Of a stretch of DNA of 64,000 nucleotides, positions 11,051-29,563 are shown in pieces (position 1 is the stretch's first letter; every line of letters starts with the position of its first letter). The notes under the pieces were generated by a model, which worked only from the letters and a program-made list of their open reading frames with translations, had not been told where the DNA came from and ran no database searches. The position numbers and the translations under genes were made by a program. The DNA comes from Pseudomonadota bacterium. Lineage in GTDB: Bacteria > Pseudomonadota > Gammaproteobacteria > Steroidobacterales > SZUA-146. The stretch spans positions 62,001 to 126,000 of the forward strand of contig JBCCHD010000008.1 of assembly GCA_039028935.1 (NCBI GenBank). Reading direction: 5' to 3'.

Positions 11051-12180
11051 CCTCGCCCTCTGACCTGAATGATGAACATCCGCTGTCAAACGCGGCGGGC
11101 CGATTGAGCACGACGCCGGCGTTCAATCTCATCTATTTGGTGTTTTTGCTCTTCCCGTGGATCTGGGTAAAGCCGCGGTTAGTGGATGTTGCGGTCGCAA
11201 TGGTCGTGCTGGCAATTTTCATTCCACTTCATCTTAAGACGTTTTTCGCGCCGACCCGTAAACGGTTGTTGCCCATCGCGATTACCGCGCTGCTCGGGTC
11301 GGTCTGCAGTTTCTTCGTGCTGGGTGCGGGCGTGTTTCAGGTGTACTGCGGCGCCATGGCCGGCTTTTGTCGTCCGGTCAAACTATCGGGCCTGCTGCTT
11401 GGTCTGTGCGCGGTAGTGTTTACCGCGAGCGCGTGGATGGCCGACCGGGCCCTGGTCGAAATGGGATTCATCTTGTTTATGTCGGCGATTGTGTGGTTTA
11501 GCTGTCTGTCGACCGCGCAAACCCTGATCGACAATCGCCAACTCGAGCGTGAACATGAGTTGGATCGGCAGACAGCATCGTTAATGGAACGCGAGCGCAT
11601 CGGTCGAGATCTGCACGATCTGCTCGGACATACTCTAACAATGGTCGCCTTGAAGTCAGATCTTGCGCGACGTCTTATCGACACGGATCCGGCACAAGCC
11701 AAAGCGGAGATCGGTGACATTCAAACGGGTGCCCGGCAGGCGCTGCAGGACGTTCGTGCCGCCTTAAGTGGGCTCGCCGCGGTGTCGATTGCCGGGGAGT
11801 TGGCGAATGCGCGTAAAGCGCTCGGAGCCGCAGACGTATCGTTGAGCGTGACCGGCCATGTGCCGACACTCTCGGCCGATCAAGATCAGGCAATCGGTTT
11901 AATGATTCGCGAAGCGGTCACTAACATCATTCGCCACACGGACGCGACTGACGCGCATATCGAGTTTTCCGTTGACGACGCGGTGCAAACGGTCACCGTG
12001 CGGGATAACGGCGGGGGACAAATCGGTGCAGAGGGTCGCGGGTTGAGTGGTTTGCGTCGTCGTATTGAGGCGCTGGGCGGAACGGTTCAGGTGGCTGGCA
12101 ATGCGAATGATCGCCTCTCCCATGCGATGGCGGATTGGTCGGGAGTGAGCATCAGCGCAAGCTTGCCTGTGACGTCATGA
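11047..12180 (+). CDS. sensor histidine kinase, DesK/LiaS (NarL-partner) type
   Basis: A 377-residue kinase. The N-terminal third holds several hydrophobic helices (about residues 22-150) with almost no extracytoplasmic loops, as in intramembrane-sensing kinases. The HisKA_3 phosphoacceptor lies in RIGRDLHDLLGH (about 180-191). The N-box IREAVTNIIRH and a glycine-rich GLSGLRRR motif mark the ATPase domain. Four-base overlaps at both ends (with the amidohydrolase and the regulator) place it firmly in this operon. By analogy with LiaS/DesK/YvfT it may sense membrane state or the exporter itself, which is inference. Confidence 0.92.
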   Translation: MTSPSDLNDEHPLSNAAGRLSTTPAFNLIYLVFLLFPWIWVKPRLVDVAVAMVVLAIFIPLHLKTFFAPTRKRLLPIAITALLGSVCSFFVLGAGVFQVYCGAMAGFCRPVKLSGLLLGLCAVVFTASAWMADRALVEMGFILFMSAIVWFSCLSTAQTLIDNRQLEREHELDRQTASLMERERIGRDLHDLLGHTLTMVALKSDLARRLIDTDPAQAKAEIGDIQTGARQALQDVRAALSGLAAVSIAGELANARKALGAADVSLSVTGHVPTLSADQDQAIGLMIREAVTNIIRHTDATDAHIEFSVDDAVQTVTVRDNGGGQIGAEGRGLSGLRRRIEALGGTVQVAGNANDRLSHAMADWSGVSISASLPVTS

Positions 12181-12779
12181 TTCGACTGGTGTTGGCGGAA
12201 GATCAATCGATGCTGCGCGGTGCGCTGGCAACGCTGCTCGCACTTGAACCGGATATGCAGGTGGTGGCGCAAACCGACAATGGCCGAGAAGCGCTGGAAC
12301 TGGTGAATACGCATCAACCGGATGTGCTGGTGACCGATATCGAAATGCCGGAAATGACCGGTCTGGACGTGGCGGCCGAACTCGATGCACAACAATCCGA
12401 TACGGCGGTACTGATTATCACCACGTTTGCCCGTTCTGGCTATCTTCAACGCGCGCGAGCGGCCTGTGTTAAGGGTTATTTGCTCAAGGATACGCCCAGC
12501 GAGGAACTGGCCGAGGCGGTGCGCCGCGTGGCGCGCGGCGAAGAGGTGTTTACGCTCGATGCGCGCAGCAATGCATGGATTGGTGAGGACCCGCTAACCG
12601 ATTCACAGCGACGGCTGCTGCAATTAGCGGAGCAGGGCTTAACCAATAAGGACATTGCCGCGCGCCTGCATTTGTCGGTGGGCACGGTGCGCAATTACCT
12701 AAATGAAATCAACGATATTTTGGGCGTATCAAACCGCATTGAAGCGTTTCGTACGGCGCGCGAGAACGGTTGGCTATAG
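12177..12779 (+). CDS. NarL/DesR-type response regulator
   Basis: A 200-residue regulator: receiver domain (about 1-120, acidic pair E9-D10, phosphoacceptor Asp in DVLVTDIEMPE, Lys in YLLKDTPSEEL) and a LuxR-type helix-turn-helix (about 135-198, AEQGLTNKDIAARLHLSVGTVRN). The ATG at 12177 overlaps the kinase stop (ATGA), so the in-frame ATG 42 nt upstream is rejected. It is the last gene of the exporter/amidohydrolase operon and probably controls that operon. It runs convergently into purD with only 7 nt between the stop codons and no visible terminator hairpin. Confidence 0.94.
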   Translation: MIRLVLAEDQSMLRGALATLLALEPDMQVVAQTDNGREALELVNTHQPDVLVTDIEMPEMTGLDVAAELDAQQSDTAVLIITTFARSGYLQRARAACVKGYLLKDTPSEELAEAVRRVARGEEVFTLDARSNAWIGEDPLTDSQRRLLQLAEQGLTNKDIAARLHLSVGTVRNYLNEINDILGVSNRIEAFRTARENGWL

Positions 12780-22802: not shown

Positions 22803-25800
22803 CTAGCGGCGAAGGACCTTCAGCGTCTGTGTCCAATTGTCCTTTTGCTCGAGCCGATCGCGAATGTCACGCATCGCTTGTGCAAATTCAATGGCGCGCA
22901 CCGGTTTGCTGAGAAAATAGCCTTGGGCGTAGTTGCAGCATTTGTCGACAAGAAAGTCCAGCTGCTCACGCGTTTCCACACCCTCGGCCACCACTTTGTA
23001 GCCTAGATTGTGAGACAACGAAATGATGGCTTGCGAAATAGCCGAATCGTTTTGATCGTGTGGCAGGTCACTAATAAAGGAGCGATCGATTTTGACGACG
23101 TTCAGCGGCAGTTGTTTCATGTAGCTCAACGACGAGTAGCCTGTGCCAAAATCGTCGACGCACAATGTGTGGCCCATATCGCGAAGTTGCTGCAGTTCGT
23201 TTTCCGCGCCCTGTGACGGCTCCAGCATATAACGTTCGGTCATTTCGATTTCGATTTGTTCTGGTTTCACGCCGTAGTGTTGGAGCACGTCATGGAAGCG
23301 AGCCGGTACGTCGCTCTTAACAAATTCCACACTCGATACATTGACGGCGATGGCATGAATATCAACGCCATCGAAAATGAACTGCTGCATGGTTTCGCAG
23401 GCTTTGCGCAGCACCCAGTCGCCGATTTTGACGATCAGGCCGACCTCTTCTGCGATCGGAATAAATTCATCGGGTGGTACTAGGCCCAGCGTTTGATGAT
23501 TCCACCGAATCAGTGCTTCAGCCTTCACCACCTCTTGGCGCTCAAGGTCGACGATCGGTTGAAACACCAGCGAAAAGTCTTGATCGTCGATCGACTTTCG
23601 CAACGCGTTTTCAATTTGCGTACGTCGCGCCATTTTATTGGACAGATCTTCACGATAGAACGCGTAGCCATTTCGACCGTTTTGCTTGGCGGTGTACATG
23701 GCGCTGTCGGCGCATTTGATCACGCTGTGTAAATCATCCGAATCATCCGGCACCATCGCGATGCCGACGCTGCAACCAATGTTGACCACGTGCTCATCGA
23801 CGATCATCGTGGCGCTCAACAAATCGATGATGCGCTGAGCGACAAGGCTTGGATTATAGCTATTGGCGACGTTTGGCAGGATCACCACAAATTCGTCGCC
23901 ACCCAAGCGGCAAAGGTGATCGGTTTCGCGCAACAGTCCCGAGAGCTTACGCGCCACGAGCTTCAGTAGTTTGTCGCCCACGGCATGACCGAGTGTGTCG
24001 TTGACTGGCTTGAAGCGATCGAGGTCAATAAACAGCACCGCAAGCTGCTGGTTTTCTCGCCGTCGAACCTTCATGGCGTAGTCTAAGTCTTGCATCAGTT
24101 TGGCCCGATTGGGCAGGCCGGTCAGCTGATCGTGATAGGCCATGTGCAGGGCGGAGTCGTGTTGCGCTTCTAGTTTGGCATTGATTTCGTGCAGCGTTTG
24201 GTTCTTTTGGTTGATTTCTTCGCGATGTCTGCGCAACTCGATGACGCGACTAAGCACGACGAGCAAAATAACACCTGCCACTAGCATCGATTGCCACAGC
24301 AGCGTGTAGTCGGTTTCTTTTTCAATCGTCACGGCCACCCACTTTTGGTGCACGTTTGTCGCTAAGGCAGGCGGCATCGCCGAGATCGCTTTGTTGATCG
24401 TCGAAGACAGCAGTGGGCGATTGCCCGCGCTAGCGACACCAAACCGTACGTTGTCATCCAAGAAAATTCCGCTTATCCTCAATGCCGAATCGGCGCGGCG
24501 ATGGATCGCGTAGTTAACGGCCGACATGAGGTCGATAACTCCGTATAACTCATTGTCTACAACATCGTTAAGGGCGGCTTGAAGCGAATCGTAGGCGACG
24601 AACTCGACATTCGGGCTGCGATTCTCAAGGAGACCAAGATCAACGTAGCCATTGACATAGCCGACTTTACCGTCTGGAAGTGACCGAAGATCGTCGACAA
24701 AGCCGCTACGTGAGTGTGTTGCCAGCGCCAGTTTTTCTGTGATGTGCGCGGGTGAAAACGCCAGCGTGTTTGCGGTGCGGTTGATACGTCCCAACGTGGC
24801 CAGGTCGCACTCGCCACGTTGGATTGCGGTTTCGATATTGCGCCAGGACTCATACCCACGCACACTGAAATTGACGTTGAGCGTCGCGCCCAATGCGGCA
24901 AGATAGTCCGAAGCCATGCCGTCAGCCACATTATTTCGTGACGATTCCAGCGGCATGCGCTGAGTATTGACGCATGCCGTGAACACGGCGTTACGCTTCA
25001 GAAAAGTGCTTTCGGCCTCGGTAAATTCGGCGCTTGCGGTCAAGAAGGTCTTGGCCGCCGCTTCGCTACCACTCCATTTTGCCATGATGGCGGTTGCCCG
25101 CTCAGCGGAAATTTCGTTGAGGGCTTTTTGAATAATATCGCGCAAGATAGGCCAATCGCTGCGGACGGCCATGGCTAAGTTATTCGATTCGAATCTGACT
25201 TTAAATGCGGGTTCAAGTCCGATGATACTCTGCGATGAGGCGTAGTAAGCAATGCTAGCCGTACTCTCTACGACGGCATCAGCGTCGCCGATCAAGACCG
25301 CGTCCATCGCGTCGACAACGCCGGTTGTCTCGAGGATGTTGATCTCCGGATGAAATTCAGAGAGGTACTCAATGGACGCGTAACCGGATGGAATTGCCAT
25401 CGTGAGGCCATACAAATCCTCCAACGACCGAATGTCTGGCCGTTTACCTTTCATAAAGACGTAGTGCCGAATCGTGATGTAAGGCAGCGTCATATGAAAT
25501 TCGCGTGCGCGCGACTCAGTCCAGTACATCATCGGAAGGAAGTCGATTTCCTGGCGACGAATCATGCCCATGAGTTCACCCCACGTGGGCCCAACCACCA
25601 AGTCAATCTCAAGTCCTGTGATAGCGGAGATTTCGTTGAGGTAGTCCAGCGCAGCGCCGGTGTACTCGCCATTCTCAACGTAATCCATCGGCGGCCAATC
25701 GGTCTCGCCGCCGACAATAATCTTAGGATTATTTAGAATGAAAGCCCGTTCTTCTTCAGTAAACTCGATAGCGAGCGACGAGACGCTGAATAGCAAAAAG

Positions 25801-25841
25801 GCGATTGTCGTTAAGGACAGGCAAGTGAGTCGCATAGTCAT
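22803..25841 (-). CDS. double periplasmic-binding-domain GGDEF-EAL signalling protein
   Basis: A 1012-residue c-di-GMP enzyme. A signal sequence (about 1-24) leads to two tandem type-3 solute-binding (Venus flytrap) domains (about 28-260 and 275-505), as in BvgS-type receptors. One membrane helix (about 513-533) and a short coiled coil (about 537-560) follow. The diguanylate cyclase domain has intact RLGGDEF. The phosphodiesterase domain has intact EALIRW, DDFGTGYSS and VVAEGVET. Both catalytic signatures look complete, so the output could be bifunctional and set by ligand. The flytrap domains resemble amino-acid binders. It stands alone, divergent from the ECF operon. The ATG at 25841 immediately precedes the signal peptide. 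Confidence 0.93.
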   Translation of the reverse strand: MTMRLTCLSLTTIAFLLFSVSSLAIEFTEEERAFILNNPKIIVGGETDWPPMDYVENGEYTGAALDYLNEISAITGLEIDLVVGPTWGELMGMIRRQEIDFLPMMYWTESRAREFHMTLPYITIRHYVFMKGKRPDIRSLEDLYGLTMAIPSGYASIEYLSEFHPEINILETTGVVDAMDAVLIGDADAVVESTASIAYYASSQSIIGLEPAFKVRFESNNLAMAVRSDWPILRDIIQKALNEISAERATAIMAKWSGSEAAAKTFLTASAEFTEAESTFLKRNAVFTACVNTQRMPLESSRNNVADGMASDYLAALGATLNVNFSVRGYESWRNIETAIQRGECDLATLGRINRTANTLAFSPAHITEKLALATHSRSGFVDDLRSLPDGKVGYVNGYVDLGLLENRSPNVEFVAYDSLQAALNDVVDNELYGVIDLMSAVNYAIHRRADSALRISGIFLDDNVRFGVASAGNRPLLSSTINKAISAMPPALATNVHQKWVAVTIEKETDYTLLWQSMLVAGVILLVVLSRVIELRRHREEINQKNQTLHEINAKLEAQHDSALHMAYHDQLTGLPNRAKLMQDLDYAMKVRRRENQQLAVLFIDLDRFKPVNDTLGHAVGDKLLKLVARKLSGLLRETDHLCRLGGDEFVVILPNVANSYNPSLVAQRIIDLLSATMIVDEHVVNIGCSVGIAMVPDDSDDLHSVIKCADSAMYTAKQNGRNGYAFYREDLSNKMARRTQIENALRKSIDDQDFSLVFQPIVDLERQEVVKAEALIRWNHQTLGLVPPDEFIPIAEEVGLIVKIGDWVLRKACETMQQFIFDGVDIHAIAVNVSSVEFVKSDVPARFHDVLQHYGVKPEQIEIEMTERYMLEPSQGAENELQQLRDMGHTLCVDDFGTGYSSLSYMKQLPLNVVKIDRSFISDLPHDQNDSAISQAIISLSHNLGYKVVAEGVETREQLDFLVDKCCNYAQGYFLSKPVRAIEFAQAMRDIRDRLEQKDNWTQTLKVLRR

Positions 25842-26152: not shown

Positions 26153-26181
26153 GGTAACTTTCGCTTGCGAATGCCGTCAAT
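26153..26181 (+). promoter_or_regulatory. candidate ECF (sigma-E-like) promoter
   Basis: GGTAACTT (26153-26160) and TCAAT (26177-26181) are separated by 16 nt. This resembles the sigma-E pattern GGAACTT-N16-TCnnA with one mismatch in the core -35. It lies about 100 nt before the first ORF of the operon that encodes an ECF sigma factor, so autoregulation would fit. Motif matching by eye only. Confidence 0.35.
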
Positions 26182-26284
26182 CGATGCCGATGAGCCGCGG
26201 CGCCTGCCGTTTGACGACTGATTGTCTGTAACGTTTTTGCTGTGGCTTCGTCATGAGAGTAAGCAACCCAATGGAAGCTGGCTC

Positions 26285-26644
26285 ATGTTTTCGTCAAATC
26301 ACGTGTATTTGCTTGTTGTTGTAATCGTTTTCTTCGCACTCAGCGCAGACGGCAAGGTTGAGATTCAGGCCATCACGGCGCCGGCGGCGGCGCACGTGGA
26401 GTCATCAGCAGACTGGCAGGATGGGTCTGGCGTGGTTGTGCGCCTCAGCGTTAAGTGGCTCGGGTACGAACAGCCCGTGATGTGGCTGGACATTAAGGTG
26501 GTACCGTTGTCGCATCCGGATGTCTGCGACGCGCCGATTGGCCTGTACTGGTGTGTCACGGCGCCTCGGTTGAGTTTGTCACGGTGTGGCGTCTTGTCGA
26601 ATCGGGCGCACACGCTTGAGAACCTGGATTCATGCACACTGTAA
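26285..26644 (+). CDS. small secreted or membrane-anchored protein, possible first gene of ECF operon
   Basis: A 119-residue ORF with a hydrophobic N-terminus (about residues 8-20) ending in an ALSADG-like cleavage region, and four cysteines in the C-terminal third. GGAAG lies 7 nt before the ATG at 26285; an upstream in-frame start (26222) lacks a site. Its end overlaps the sigma-factor gene by 13 bases, which suggests coupling if it is real. I recognise no family. It could be a chance ORF: there is no homology evidence and the C-terminal composition is unremarkable. Confidence 0.4.
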   Translation: MFSSNHVYLLVVVIVFFALSADGKVEIQAITAPAAAHVESSADWQDGSGVVVRLSVKWLGYEQPVMWLDIKVVPLSHPDVCDAPIGLYWCVTAPRLSLSRCGVLSNRAHTLENLDSCTL

Positions 26645-27201
26645 CGGATGAGCAATTGATTCACTGGGTCGCGAGTGGCGACGCGTCTTGTTTGGCGACG
26701 CTATTTGAGCGCCACCATCGCAGTGTTTTTCAGTTCTGCCTGCAGATGACCCGCAACCGCGCCCAAAGCGAAGATCTGGTTCAGGACGTGTTCATTCGAC
26801 TACTTAAGCGTGCCGACAGTTTTCGTAACGAGGGCAGCTTCAAAGCCTGGATGTTCAACATTGCCCGTAATCTCACACTCGATTATTTGCGCCAAAGTGC
26901 AACCCGCCGTTCGGTGTCGGTGGAGGACGCGGCCGATGTCAACTCGCTAGCGGATTATCGATCCGCCGAGCAGGCGGCGGCCGGATCGCAAAAAATGCAG
27001 CAGGTGCTCCACGCCCTGGGTCAGTTGCCGCTTGCCGCGCAGGAAGTGATTTGGCTCGGACGTTTCGAATTTGACAGCTATCGAGAGCTCGGCCAAGCGC
27101 TGGCATGCAGCACCGGGGCGGCAAGAGTGCGCATGCATCGCGCCATGGCCCAACTCAATGACACCTTTACCCGCGTACACGGAGTATCGATTGATGACTA
27201 A
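26632..27201 (+). CDS. ECF RNA polymerase sigma factor
   Basis: A 189-residue sigma-70-family factor. Region 2 (about 20-90) contains EDLVQDVFIRLLKRAD and FKAWMFNIARNLTLDYLR. Region 4 (about 125-180) contains LPLAAQEVIWLGRFEFDSYRELGQAL with the helix-turn-helix ACSTGAARVRMHRAM. No extra C-terminal domain. The following gene starts inside its last codons (8-base overlap), the usual way an anti-sigma partner is coupled. It presumably directs transcription of this operon and possibly other envelope genes. Confidence 0.93.
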   Translation: MHTVTDEQLIHWVASGDASCLATLFERHHRSVFQFCLQMTRNRAQSEDLVQDVFIRLLKRADSFRNEGSFKAWMFNIARNLTLDYLRQSATRRSVSVEDAADVNSLADYRSAEQAAAGSQKMQQVLHALGQLPLAAQEVIWLGRFEFDSYRELGQALACSTGAARVRMHRAMAQLNDTFTRVHGVSIDD

Positions 27202-27895
27202 AAAAGTCTTTCCCGACTTGTCCAACGATGAAACGGGTGAACAGCACTCGCTCTGGTCGACGTTAGGACAACTGGAGCGCGAGCAGCCCTCGGATCGTTT
27301 GCGCCAACAGTTCTATGCTCGCCTTCACGACGAAAGTAAGCCTCGACTGATCACGCGACTCGGTAACTGGTTGGGTTTGGCATCCGGTACTGGCTGGGTC
27401 ACGGCCACAGCGTGTTTATTGGCAGGCGTGGTCTCCGGCCTAGTGTGGACCGGCGATAGCGGCTCTGACCGACTCGCGGTTCTGGAGCAAAACGTATCGC
27501 AACTCAATCGCAGTCTTATCCTCGATCGGCTGGAAAACCAACAACCGGGGAAACGTCTCATGGGCGTGCTCGGTGCCGCTGAATCGGGACTCGACGATGC
27601 GCAAGTGACAGAGCGATTGCTGACTGTCGCCACGACTGATCGGGTCGACTCGATTCGCTCCGCGGCCGTCGAGGCGCTCGGCCGACGACTGGCATCGGCT
27701 GAGGTCGCGGCGCCATTGATGCAGCAACTGGAAAATGCCGACGCGCCACTCGTGCAATTTGCTCTGGTGGACTTGGTGTTGCGGCACGGCACCCCCGCTC
27801 AAATTGACGCATTACGCCAACTTGCCGAACAGAAACGACTATTTCCAGATCTCAATCAACATGTGTTGAACACCCTAAAAAGGAACTCAGTATGA
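27194..27895 (+). CDS. HEAT-repeat membrane protein in anti-sigma position
   Basis: A 233-residue protein. A short cytoplasmic N-terminus (about 1-60) is followed by one membrane helix (about 66-86) and a short helical linker (about 92-112). A C-terminal alpha-helical region resembles HEAT repeats (about 115-225, with SIRSAAVEALGRRL and LVQFALVDLVLRHG). The position and single-pass layout suggest an anti-sigma factor. However, the HxxxCxxC zinc anti-sigma motif is absent, so the inhibitory N-terminus would be a different type. The ATG at 27194 overlaps the sigma stop; an earlier in-frame start (27071) lies within the sigma gene and is rejected. Its stop overlaps the next start (ATGA). Confidence 0.75.
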   Translation: MTKKVFPDLSNDETGEQHSLWSTLGQLEREQPSDRLRQQFYARLHDESKPRLITRLGNWLGLASGTGWVTATACLLAGVVSGLVWTGDSGSDRLAVLEQNVSQLNRSLILDRLENQQPGKRLMGVLGAAESGLDDAQVTERLLTVATTDRVDSIRSAAVEALGRRLASAEVAAPLMQQLENADAPLVQFALVDLVLRHGTPAQIDALRQLAEQKRLFPDLNQHVLNTLKRNSV

Positions 27896-28713
27896 AAATC
27901 CTGCTTATTGTCGCGGTCATCGCTACGCTCTGGGCGAGTGCCGATGCGAGTGAGGTTAAAAAGGACAGCTGGACAAAAACCTATACCGTTAACGCCTCTC
28001 CCACGTTGGTCATCCGCAATGTATGGGGCAGTGTCAAGGTGAAACCGGGGCCGAGCGGCGAGATAAAAGTGTCTGTCAAAGAGCAGCGATCGGCCGCCAC
28101 GCAGGAAGACTTCGAGTGGTCAAAAGAAGTCATCCAGCTGAGTGTTGACGCGTCAGACGACGCGGTCAAATTTAAAGTGGGTGACCCGGAAAAACGCTGG
28201 AACAGTGGGCGCCATTGCGATGATTGTCGTCTCGAGCTTGAATTTGATGTCGTCGTCCCGCCCGATGCATTGATCGACGTGCGCACGGTTCTCGATGGAG
28301 ATGTACAGGTGCGAGACATTCGTGGTGTCGTCAGCGCCGGCAATGTAAATGGCGCCATCGACGTGTCTGGCGTACACAACTGCGCGCGGATAAAAACGGT
28401 GAATGGCCCCGTGGACATTGCATTCGCGAAGGCCCCGACCGATGACTGCAGCTTTGACACAATTAACGGCGACATCACGCTCATTGTTCCCGCGACTGCC
28501 GGGCTTGATGTGGCGGTTGATCTATTCAATGGGGACGTTTCGTCCGATCTACCCATCGAACCGATGGCTCGTCCGGCAAGTGTCGAGCAAGTGACCAAAA
28601 AAGGACGCAATAAATTTCTCATCCGTAAGCAATCCGGGTTTCGGATTGGCTCGGGTGGGCCGCTTTACACCGTCGAATCGATGAACGGTGATATTCAAAT
28701 TCGTAAACAGTGA
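27892..28713 (+). CDS. exported DUF4097-like beta-repeat protein (first of pair)
   Basis: A 273-residue secreted or periplasmic protein with a signal peptide (about 1-19). The body is a ladder of short beta-strand repeats with a recurrent NG motif (NVNGAIDV, TVNGPVDI, TINGDITL, LFNGDVSS, SMNGDIQI), characteristic of DUF4097/DUF4098-type putative adhesin beta-helices. A CDDC pair and two further cysteines may form disulfides. It overlaps the HEAT-protein gene by 4 bases, and the paralogue follows after 14 nt. Function is unknown; association with membrane-stress or adhesion responses is a general property of the family, not shown here. Confidence 0.85.
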   Translation: MKILLIVAVIATLWASADASEVKKDSWTKTYTVNASPTLVIRNVWGSVKVKPGPSGEIKVSVKEQRSAATQEDFEWSKEVIQLSVDASDDAVKFKVGDPEKRWNSGRHCDDCRLELEFDVVVPPDALIDVRTVLDGDVQVRDIRGVVSAGNVNGAIDVSGVHNCARIKTVNGPVDIAFAKAPTDDCSFDTINGDITLIVPATAGLDVAVDLFNGDVSSDLPIEPMARPASVEQVTKKGRNKFLIRKQSGFRIGSGGPLYTVESMNGDIQIRKQ

Positions 28714-28727
28714 TGGTGGAGACAACC

Positions 28728-29525
28728 ATGAAGAAGAGTTTTTGTTTACTGGCCATTCTCCTGACCGCGTGCGCGTTCGCGCAGCAGGGGCCGCAAACCG
28801 TTAATGTGCCCATTTCGCGCCCAGGTGAGCCGATCGAGTTAGACATCAACATCATGTCGGCGCGCATCGAGGTGATCGGCGAAAACCGCGATGATGCCCA
28901 GTTTGAAGTGATGGTGGCAGACGGCCAGCGAAAGATTGTGACGCCGTCGGGCACGCAGCTATTGAAAGGGGGCGCCTATGCGTTGGAGATTGAAGAAGAT
29001 AACAATGCTATTTCATTCGACGCCGACTGGCGGAGTAATCGAGTTACCGTTTTGGCACGGATACCACGACGGGCCAACCTGTCCCTGCGAACCATCAATA
29101 ACGGCGAGATCATCGTGAGCAACGTTGAGGGAAGTCTCAAGCTATCGAATGTCAATGGCCCAATCACGGCCACCAACATCTCGGGCTCGGTGATCGCCGA
29201 GTCGGTAAACAAAGACATTACGGTGAGTTTTGCCCGACTTGACGGTGATAGCGCGACCAGTTTCGAAACGATTAATGGCGATCTTCGACTCGGACTGCCA
29301 CCCGATGCAGGCGCAAAGCTGTATCTGGATACCAGCAATGGCGAAGTGTACTCAGATTTCGATGTTGATGTGGAACCGAGCAAGCCCGTCGTCAAACGCA
29401 AGGATGATGCGCGTGGCGCCGCGATTCGTATTGAGAGTGTGATTATCGCGAACGTTAACGGCGGTGGTCCCGTCGTCAGAATGAAAGGACTTCAAGGTGA
29501 TATTTATATCGAAAAGAACCAGTAG
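28728..29525 (+). CDS. exported DUF4097-like beta-repeat protein (second of pair), possible lipoprotein
   Basis: A 265-residue paralogue of the preceding protein with the same repeat style (TINNGEIIV, NVNGPITA, SVNKDITV, TINGDLRL, TSNGEVYS). The N-terminus can be read as a signal peptide or, through LTAC, as a lipobox with Cys15; the following AFAQ also fits signal peptidase I, so lipidation is uncertain. In-frame upstream starts at 28710 (GTG) and 28713 (ATG) exist. GGTGGAG sits 6 nt before the ATG at 28728, which alone gives a clean signal sequence. An intrinsic terminator follows 7 bases after the stop. Confidence 0.85.
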   Translation: MKKSFCLLAILLTACAFAQQGPQTVNVPISRPGEPIELDINIMSARIEVIGENRDDAQFEVMVADGQRKIVTPSGTQLLKGGAYALEIEEDNNAISFDADWRSNRVTVLARIPRRANLSLRTINNGEIIVSNVEGSLKLSNVNGPITATNISGSVIAESVNKDITVSFARLDGDSATSFETINGDLRLGLPPDAGAKLYLDTSNGEVYSDFDVDVEPSKPVVKRKDDARGAAIRIESVIIANVNGGGPVVRMKGLQGDIYIEKNQ

Positions 29526-29532
29526 TGACCAA

Positions 29533-29563
29533 CGCCTGGGCGGTGAGTGCCCAGGCGTCTTTT
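29533..29563 (+). terminator. intrinsic terminator of the ECF operon
   Basis: Perfect 9-bp stem CGCCTGGGC / GCCCAGGCG with a 7-nt loop, followed by TCTTTT. It lies 7 nt after the last gene of the operon. Confidence 0.9.

Follow-up and report, generated by a model that had tools for sequence, protein, structure and literature searches.

A conserved operon joining an ECF sigma factor, a HEAT-repeat membrane protein that is its probable anti-sigma factor, and two predicted exported Toastrack proteins

How might a sigma factor be linked to proteins that are predicted to leave the cytoplasm? The question is raised by a four-gene operon on the forward strand of a 64,000-nt stretch of DNA (hereafter referred to as the window; contig JBCCHD010000008.1 of assembly GCA_039028935.1, positions 62,001-126,000, forward strand). 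The first gene encodes an extracytoplasmic function (ECF) sigma factor (26632-27201, 189 aa) and the second a single-pass membrane protein with HEAT repeats (27194-27895, 233 aa), followed by two genes for predicted exported proteins with the DUF4097/Toastrack domain, here named D1 (27892-28713, 273 aa) and D2 (28728-29525, 265 aa). The original prediction, made from the sequence alone, had described the four genes as tightly packed, and the exact coordinates re-derived here agree with it: the sigma and HEAT genes overlap by 8 nt, the HEAT and D1 genes by 4 nt, and the ATG start codon of D2 at 28728 lies 14 nt past the D1 stop. The same gene order recurs in related loci, as expected of one conserved unit, and comparison of these sequences suggests that the operon is a genuine signalling module, complete in itself.

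The conservation of the operon was assessed with the sigma protein alone as query, in a scan over ~85,000 bacterial and archaeal genomes that returned 13 loci. These loci were then translated and compared with the window proteins, and counts out of 14 given below comprise the 13 loci and the window. Their sources are metagenome-assembled genomes labelled Woeseiaceae, Lysobacterales, Gammaproteobacteria or uncultured proteobacterium, and because the sigma scan picks up close relatives only, the 13 loci represent one lineage and not independent inventions. The order sigma, HEAT, D1 is identical in all 13, and both DUF4097 genes are present in each of the 12 loci with long enough contigs; this neighbourhood survey therefore disposes of the possibility, raised at the outset, that DUF4097 genes might be absent from most loci with the sigma/HEAT pair. 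Identity to the window proteins amounts to 56-71% for sigma, 42-53% for the HEAT protein, 39-51% for D1 and 53-75% for D2 (12 relatives). Searches with the HEAT protein as a single sequence in 59 relatives and 274 class members yielded a single genuine relative, a member of the same genus, and weaker matches such as L015 were rejected as not lying in such an operon. A HEAT profile found only one distant locus (G387) in 369 class genomes and nothing beyond the own genome in 398 phylum genomes, and no match to the HEAT protein was found in plasmids. The DUF4097 loci on C25 and C38 of the own genome do not adjoin any sigma/HEAT pair.

The identification of the first gene as an ECF sigma factor was upheld by matches above the Pfam cut-offs to Sigma70_r2 (E=3e-20, residues 24-89) and Sigma70_r4_2 (E=1e-6, residues 123-175), together with a match above cut-off to TIGR02937 in NCBIfam. 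The protein thus has the sigma2 and sigma4 regions without sigma1.1 or sigma3, and its 189 aa fall within the size of about 180-200 aa that defines ECF factors. An ECF group number for this sigma factor may already exist. The own genome contains a separate sigma unit (L077, 9477-13126), in which an ECF sigma gene is followed by a gene for a 393-aa anti-sigma-like protein, downstream of one for a 590-aa protein with VWA-like sequence.

Alignment of the upstream regions of the loci revealed TGTAACGTTT, followed by CGTC, just 5' of the sigma gene. The pattern [TG]GTAAC-N16-[ACG]GTC is present, with exact N16 spacing, in the 600 nt preceding sigma at each of the 14 loci, against a mean of 0.03 loci and a maximum of 1 in shuffled sequences; since the pattern was derived from the same loci the shuffle figure is somewhat flattering, a reservation that leaves the exact spacing and the lack of matches elsewhere unaffected. 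Across 371 kb, counting both strands, the motif was found 15 times, always upstream of this sigma gene, the fifteenth occurrence being a second site in the window. The exact match to the conserved consensus in the window is TGTAACGTTTTTGCTGTGGCTTCGTC (26227-26252, forward strand; -35 element TGTAACGTTT, -10 element CGTC), a probable autoregulated ECF promoter. Autoregulated ECF promoters have AAC in the -35 element, CGT in the -10 element and a spacer of ~16 nt, and a motif of the TGTAAC-N16-CGTC type precedes sigma in all 14 loci. A sigma-E-like promoter had been predicted before the operon, and an ECF-type motif is indeed there; the site first proposed, at 26153, proved to be a near match, however, reading GGTAAC-N16-CGTC (26153-26178, forward strand) with one mismatch to TGTAAC-N16-CGTC. 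The shorter pattern GTAAC-N16-CGTC occurs 20 times in the own 4.1-Mb genome, and because it is this infrequent the two copies lying 74 nt apart here (26153 and 26227) are unlikely to have arisen by chance. No second motif copy was found in the relatives within 600 nt upstream of sigma.

The motif lies 23-47 nt from the sigma start in 11 loci, mostly at 23-29 nt. In the window the promoter stands 379 nt 5' of sigma because a small open reading frame (ORF) intervenes (26285-26644, forward strand), encoding 119 aa with a signal-peptide-like start and a Cys-containing C-terminal half, without a Pfam or NCBIfam match. The loci L047 and L048 have long leaders too, each with a short, signal-peptide-like, Cys-containing ORF. 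Such extra ORFs were seen in 3 of 14 loci (26285-26644 in the window, about 4728-5001 in L047 and 3915-4145 in L048) and their sequences are barely alike; this optional part of the operon might encode a rapidly evolving secreted regulator, or it might serve as a translational leader.

A search for further targets used the stricter pattern TGTAACG-N15-CGTC on the own and the relatives' genomes, with the reversed pattern as control. Matches outside the operon were about as numerous as those of the control and lay mostly within open frames, and between the own and the relatives' genomes no downstream gene other than this sigma gene was recurrent; the ORF listed at the motif in L109 and L110 is the frame of the same operon's HEAT gene. 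A wide regulon under this motif was therefore rejected. As far as the sequences allow, the sole conserved target of the motif looks like its own operon, with a more degenerate regulon possible, and since the motif is found at all 14 loci and before no recurrent gene elsewhere, the operon would form a closed, autoregulated circuit with itself as the conserved output. The term "envelope response" used in the original prediction may for this reason overstate the case.

The second protein had been described as occupying the place of an anti-sigma factor without its zinc motif, having instead a membrane helix and a HEAT domain, and each part of this description holds across the family. HEAT_2 matches the window protein above the Pfam cut-off (E=2e-6) and is found in 14/14 homologues, a single hydrophobic segment lies at the same place in all 14 by hydropathy (residues ~66-86; the predicted transmembrane helix of residues 66-86 is encoded at 27389-27451, forward strand), and the zinc motif H-x3-C-x2-C is absent from all 14. 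An AlphaFold2 model (mean predicted local distance difference test score, pLDDT, 71) shows helices at residues 16-25 and 34-47 before the membrane (pLDDT mostly 38-60), the membrane helix at 68-85, a long helix at 90-113 and then HEAT-like helix pairs stacked to the C-terminus (repeats 118-232, pLDDT mostly >80), and its fold matches in the PDB, to alphaRep and HEAT proteins, are weak. Conservation of the predicted periplasmic helix and repeats equals or exceeds that of the cytoplasmic part, in which W21, P32, R37, F40 and L44 are invariant in 14/14 sequences. Class I anti-sigma factors have an N-terminal sigma-binding domain of 101 +/- 33 aa (PMC7406223), with a zinc motif in about half of them, and class II, exemplified by CnrY, has a short two-helix cytoplasmic part (PMC7406223), the helices of which wrap the sigma factor. 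With ~65 residues before the transmembrane helix, no zinc motif and no Pfam anti-sigma match, the HEAT protein falls outside the class I anti-sigma domain (ASDI); judged by length and the two modelled helices only, its short cytoplasmic part resembles class II more than a class I domain.

The case for an anti-sigma role comes from gene position and from what occupies the same slot elsewhere. Twenty loci were taken, centred on the HEAT homologue of G387 or on DUF4097 genes from the own genome and from other Gammaproteobacteria, and in 8 of them (L061, L063-L068 and L073) an ECF sigma gene lies upstream with one gene for a protein of 175-260 aa in between. The middle protein of L068 has a zf-HC2 anti-sigma domain above cut-off (E=8e-8) with a transmembrane helix, and the genes are ordered alike on a Gemmatirosa plasmid (Gemmatimonadota), where a CGEC zinc-finger transmembrane protein, read from the sequence, stands in the middle. 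The corresponding protein of L061 joins an extended anti-sigma-like N-terminus, which matches DUF3379 and zf-HC2 weakly, to a transmembrane helix and a HEAT domain that matches the HEAT profile of the window family at 7e-20, and a DUF4097 gene follows. Because the slot holds zinc-finger anti-sigma proteins elsewhere, and because in L061 an anti-sigma-like N-terminus is fused to the transmembrane-HEAT part, the HEAT protein is a probable anti-sigma factor; it sits in the anti-sigma position as predicted, its binding of sigma is a strong prediction, and it appears to fill the anti-sigma slot of a wider sigma/anti-sigma/Toastrack type.

In L063-L068, L073 and L126 the order is ECF sigma, membrane protein of 175-215 aa and exported DUF4097 protein; this arrangement spans several families of Gammaproteobacteria as well as Gemmatirosa, and its middle protein often lacks a significant Pfam match. 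Proteins of the zf-HC2/HEAT anti-sigma and DUF4097 kind are probably common in Acidobacteriota, Bacteroidota and Gemmatimonadota. These wider triplets share with the window operon the gene order and the exported DUF4097 protein after the membrane protein. They differ from it in that the middle protein bears zf-HC2 or lacks any recognised domain, without HEAT repeats except in L061, in that there is one DUF4097 gene as against two, and in that the TGTAAC-N16-CGTC promoter is not evident. The distant operon of L061 (5535-7876, minus strand), comprising sigma, the HEAT anti-sigma-like protein and a single DUF4097 gene, was possibly acquired horizontally; its HEAT homologue (G387/L061) was found in just one of the 53 genomes of that family.

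The two remaining genes encode, as anticipated, a pair of predicted secreted DUF4097 proteins. Both match Pfam DUF4097 above the cut-offs (E=2e-6 for D1 and 2e-5 for D2), and judged by hydropathy each starts with a signal-peptide-like segment at every locus (D1 in 13/13); export of the two is strongly predicted. The right-handed beta-helix expected of a Toastrack protein is seen in the model of D1 (pLDDT 87.7), whose best PDB match is 4qrk (E=4e-9), followed by 3pet and 4opw, all of them solved Toastrack-type structures; D2 shares about 30% identity with D1 in the C-terminal part. Four cysteines of D1 are invariant in 13/13 sequences (C109-x2-C112, C164 and C186) and none is conserved in D2, so the two proteins are not interchangeable. 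Strand spacing would place C164 and C186 about one beta-helix turn apart in sequence, and a disulfide or metal site in D1 is for this reason possible. Of the six gene pairs of the operon, HEAT and D1 show the highest correlation of pairwise distances (r=0.80); this is the one sequence-level hint of HEAT-Toastrack binding, and a weak one because all operon genes share one history.

Based on these observations, we propose that the operon forms a transmembrane signalling circuit complete in itself, with the HEAT protein as anti-sigma factor and D1 and D2 as its likeliest periplasmic partners, a reading that we regard as fairly probable. The ECF sigma factor would transcribe its own operon from the TGTAAC-N16-CGTC promoter, and the short cytoplasmic helices of the HEAT protein would hold sigma, with one helix spanning the membrane and the coiled helix and HEAT-repeat domain standing in the periplasm. 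D1 and D2, as exported Toastrack beta-helix proteins, would be produced while sigma is active and would be the likeliest partners of the HEAT domain there. Sigma would be released when the D1/D2/HEAT complex changes, whether in response to a ligand, through damage to the envelope or through the redox or metal state of the four cysteines of D1, and newly made D1 and D2 would then restore inhibition. Binding of the Toastrack proteins by the HEAT domain is plausible and is the weakest step of the circuit; this binding, the signal and the feedback are proposed with moderate to low confidence. A more specific version is offered tentatively, as a possibility: the operon would be a closed module in which the anti-sigma factor reads the state of the two co-encoded Toastrack proteins through its periplasmic HEAT domain, D1 would contribute a four-cysteine redox or metal switch, and the only conserved job of sigma would be to renew the sensor complex.

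Several points weigh against the proposed circuit. In the window HEAT protein neither Pfam nor NCBIfam detects an anti-sigma domain, the N-terminus is short and its model is of low confidence (pLDDT 60 or below), and no regulon was found apart from the operon. Toastrack domains have also been argued to be intracellular (PMC11237479), although the window copies start with signal-peptide-like segments. The main rival holds that D1 and D2 are not part of a sensor but the effector output, protecting or stabilising the envelope, with the HEAT protein sensing something else, such as membrane or peptidoglycan stress. Apart from sigma and anti-sigma, the promoter has no conserved genes under it other than D1 and D2, DUF4097 follows HEAT-less membrane proteins in related loci and thus does not require a HEAT partner, and Toastrack proteins of the LiaX/LiaG type, to which there are weak NCBIfam matches, belong to envelope responses. 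A response that makes only itself and two scaffold-like proteins would be unusual, however, and D1 evolves at a rate close to that of HEAT (mean distance 0.52 versus 0.51) and correlates best with it, as partners would; we consider an effector role somewhat unlikely. That the HEAT protein is a structural or scaffold membrane protein merely co-transcribed with sigma, whose activity would be set by transcription alone, would accord with the missing anti-sigma domain and zinc motif and the poorly modelled N-terminus, but it is improbable given the zinc-finger anti-sigma proteins that hold the slot in L068 and Gemmatirosa, the anti-sigma-like N-terminus in L061 and the five invariant residues of the cytoplasmic part. 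Chance clustering, or a genus-specific operon without functional meaning, might have accounted for a first search in which just 2 of the 59 relatives' genomes, the own included, had the operon, and is refuted by the recurrence of these genes, in this order and with this promoter, in 13 other loci at protein identities of 39-75%, which makes its probability negligible.

Among the closest known systems is RpoE-RseA-RseB of E. coli, in which sigma E, its anti-sigma factor and a periplasmic regulator are encoded in an autoregulated operon and RpoE controls a large regulon. Both have an ECF sigma factor followed by a single-pass, zinc-less anti-sigma or anti-sigma-like protein and an exported protein, under a promoter that is autoregulated or, in the window, probably so. 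The window operon differs in having HEAT repeats and two Toastrack proteins, none of its proteins matching the RseA anti-sigma or MucB/RseB Pfam domains, and a motif without other recurrent targets. In the CnrH-CnrY-CnrX system of Cupriavidus a periplasmic partner is likewise encoded beside the anti-sigma factor, whose short two-helix cytoplasmic part may have a counterpart in the HEAT protein, as judged by length and by helices modelled at low confidence; a HEAT domain is absent from CnrY, and CnrX does not belong to the Toastrack proteins. With the Lia/PSP-type Toastrack neighbourhoods (LiaG, LiaX, VraT) the operon shares the association of the DUF4097 fold with an envelope-type regulator, and differs from them in that its Toastrack proteins are predicted to be exported and are paired with an ECF sigma factor and a HEAT protein. 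By Pfam, neither PspA, PspC, LiaI-LiaF-TM, a two-component/LiaRS gene nor a DUF2089 gene is present in the operon, and no partner of a PSP/Lia envelope response is found there or in the two flanking genes. The nearest statement met with in the openly licensed literature reports Toastrack neighbourhoods with an operonically linked sigma factor in a DUF2089 context (PMC11237479). No description of a HEAT-repeat anti-sigma factor or of an ECF/anti-sigma/DUF4097 operon was found in the openly licensed literature, so the claim that the system is undescribed stands to that extent, but the broader order of ECF sigma, membrane anti-sigma and DUF4097 extends beyond this operon. We therefore regard it as a variant of sigma/anti-sigma transmembrane signalling for which no open-access description was found.

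The operon ends, as predicted, in a terminator-like hairpin (29532-29558, forward strand) with an 11-bp stem and a T-rich tail directly 3' of it (CTTTTACT); a similar hairpin follows D2 in a few relatives and was not found in most. The flanking genes are oppositely oriented and encode a GGDEF/EAL protein on the upstream side and an M17 aminopeptidase on the downstream side. The divergent upstream neighbour (22803-25841, minus strand) encodes 1012 aa with two SBP_bac_3 stretches besides GGDEF and EAL. A sigma-domain match at 12594 was rejected as a second sigma factor, since it corresponds to the helix-turn-helix of a response-regulator-like protein (12135-12779, read from the sequence), and Rfam gave no match in the window.

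Toastrack/DUF4097 proteins occur widely, for the most part without an explanation of what they do, and the operon directly links predicted exported members of this group to an ECF sigma factor. The zinc-finger anti-sigma proteins found in the same slot elsewhere suggest a general sigma/anti-sigma/Toastrack type of signalling, for which the window operon would propose a periplasmic role of HEAT repeats as the sensor of an anti-sigma factor, and the conserved promoter provides a ready reporter for a direct test of the sensing question.

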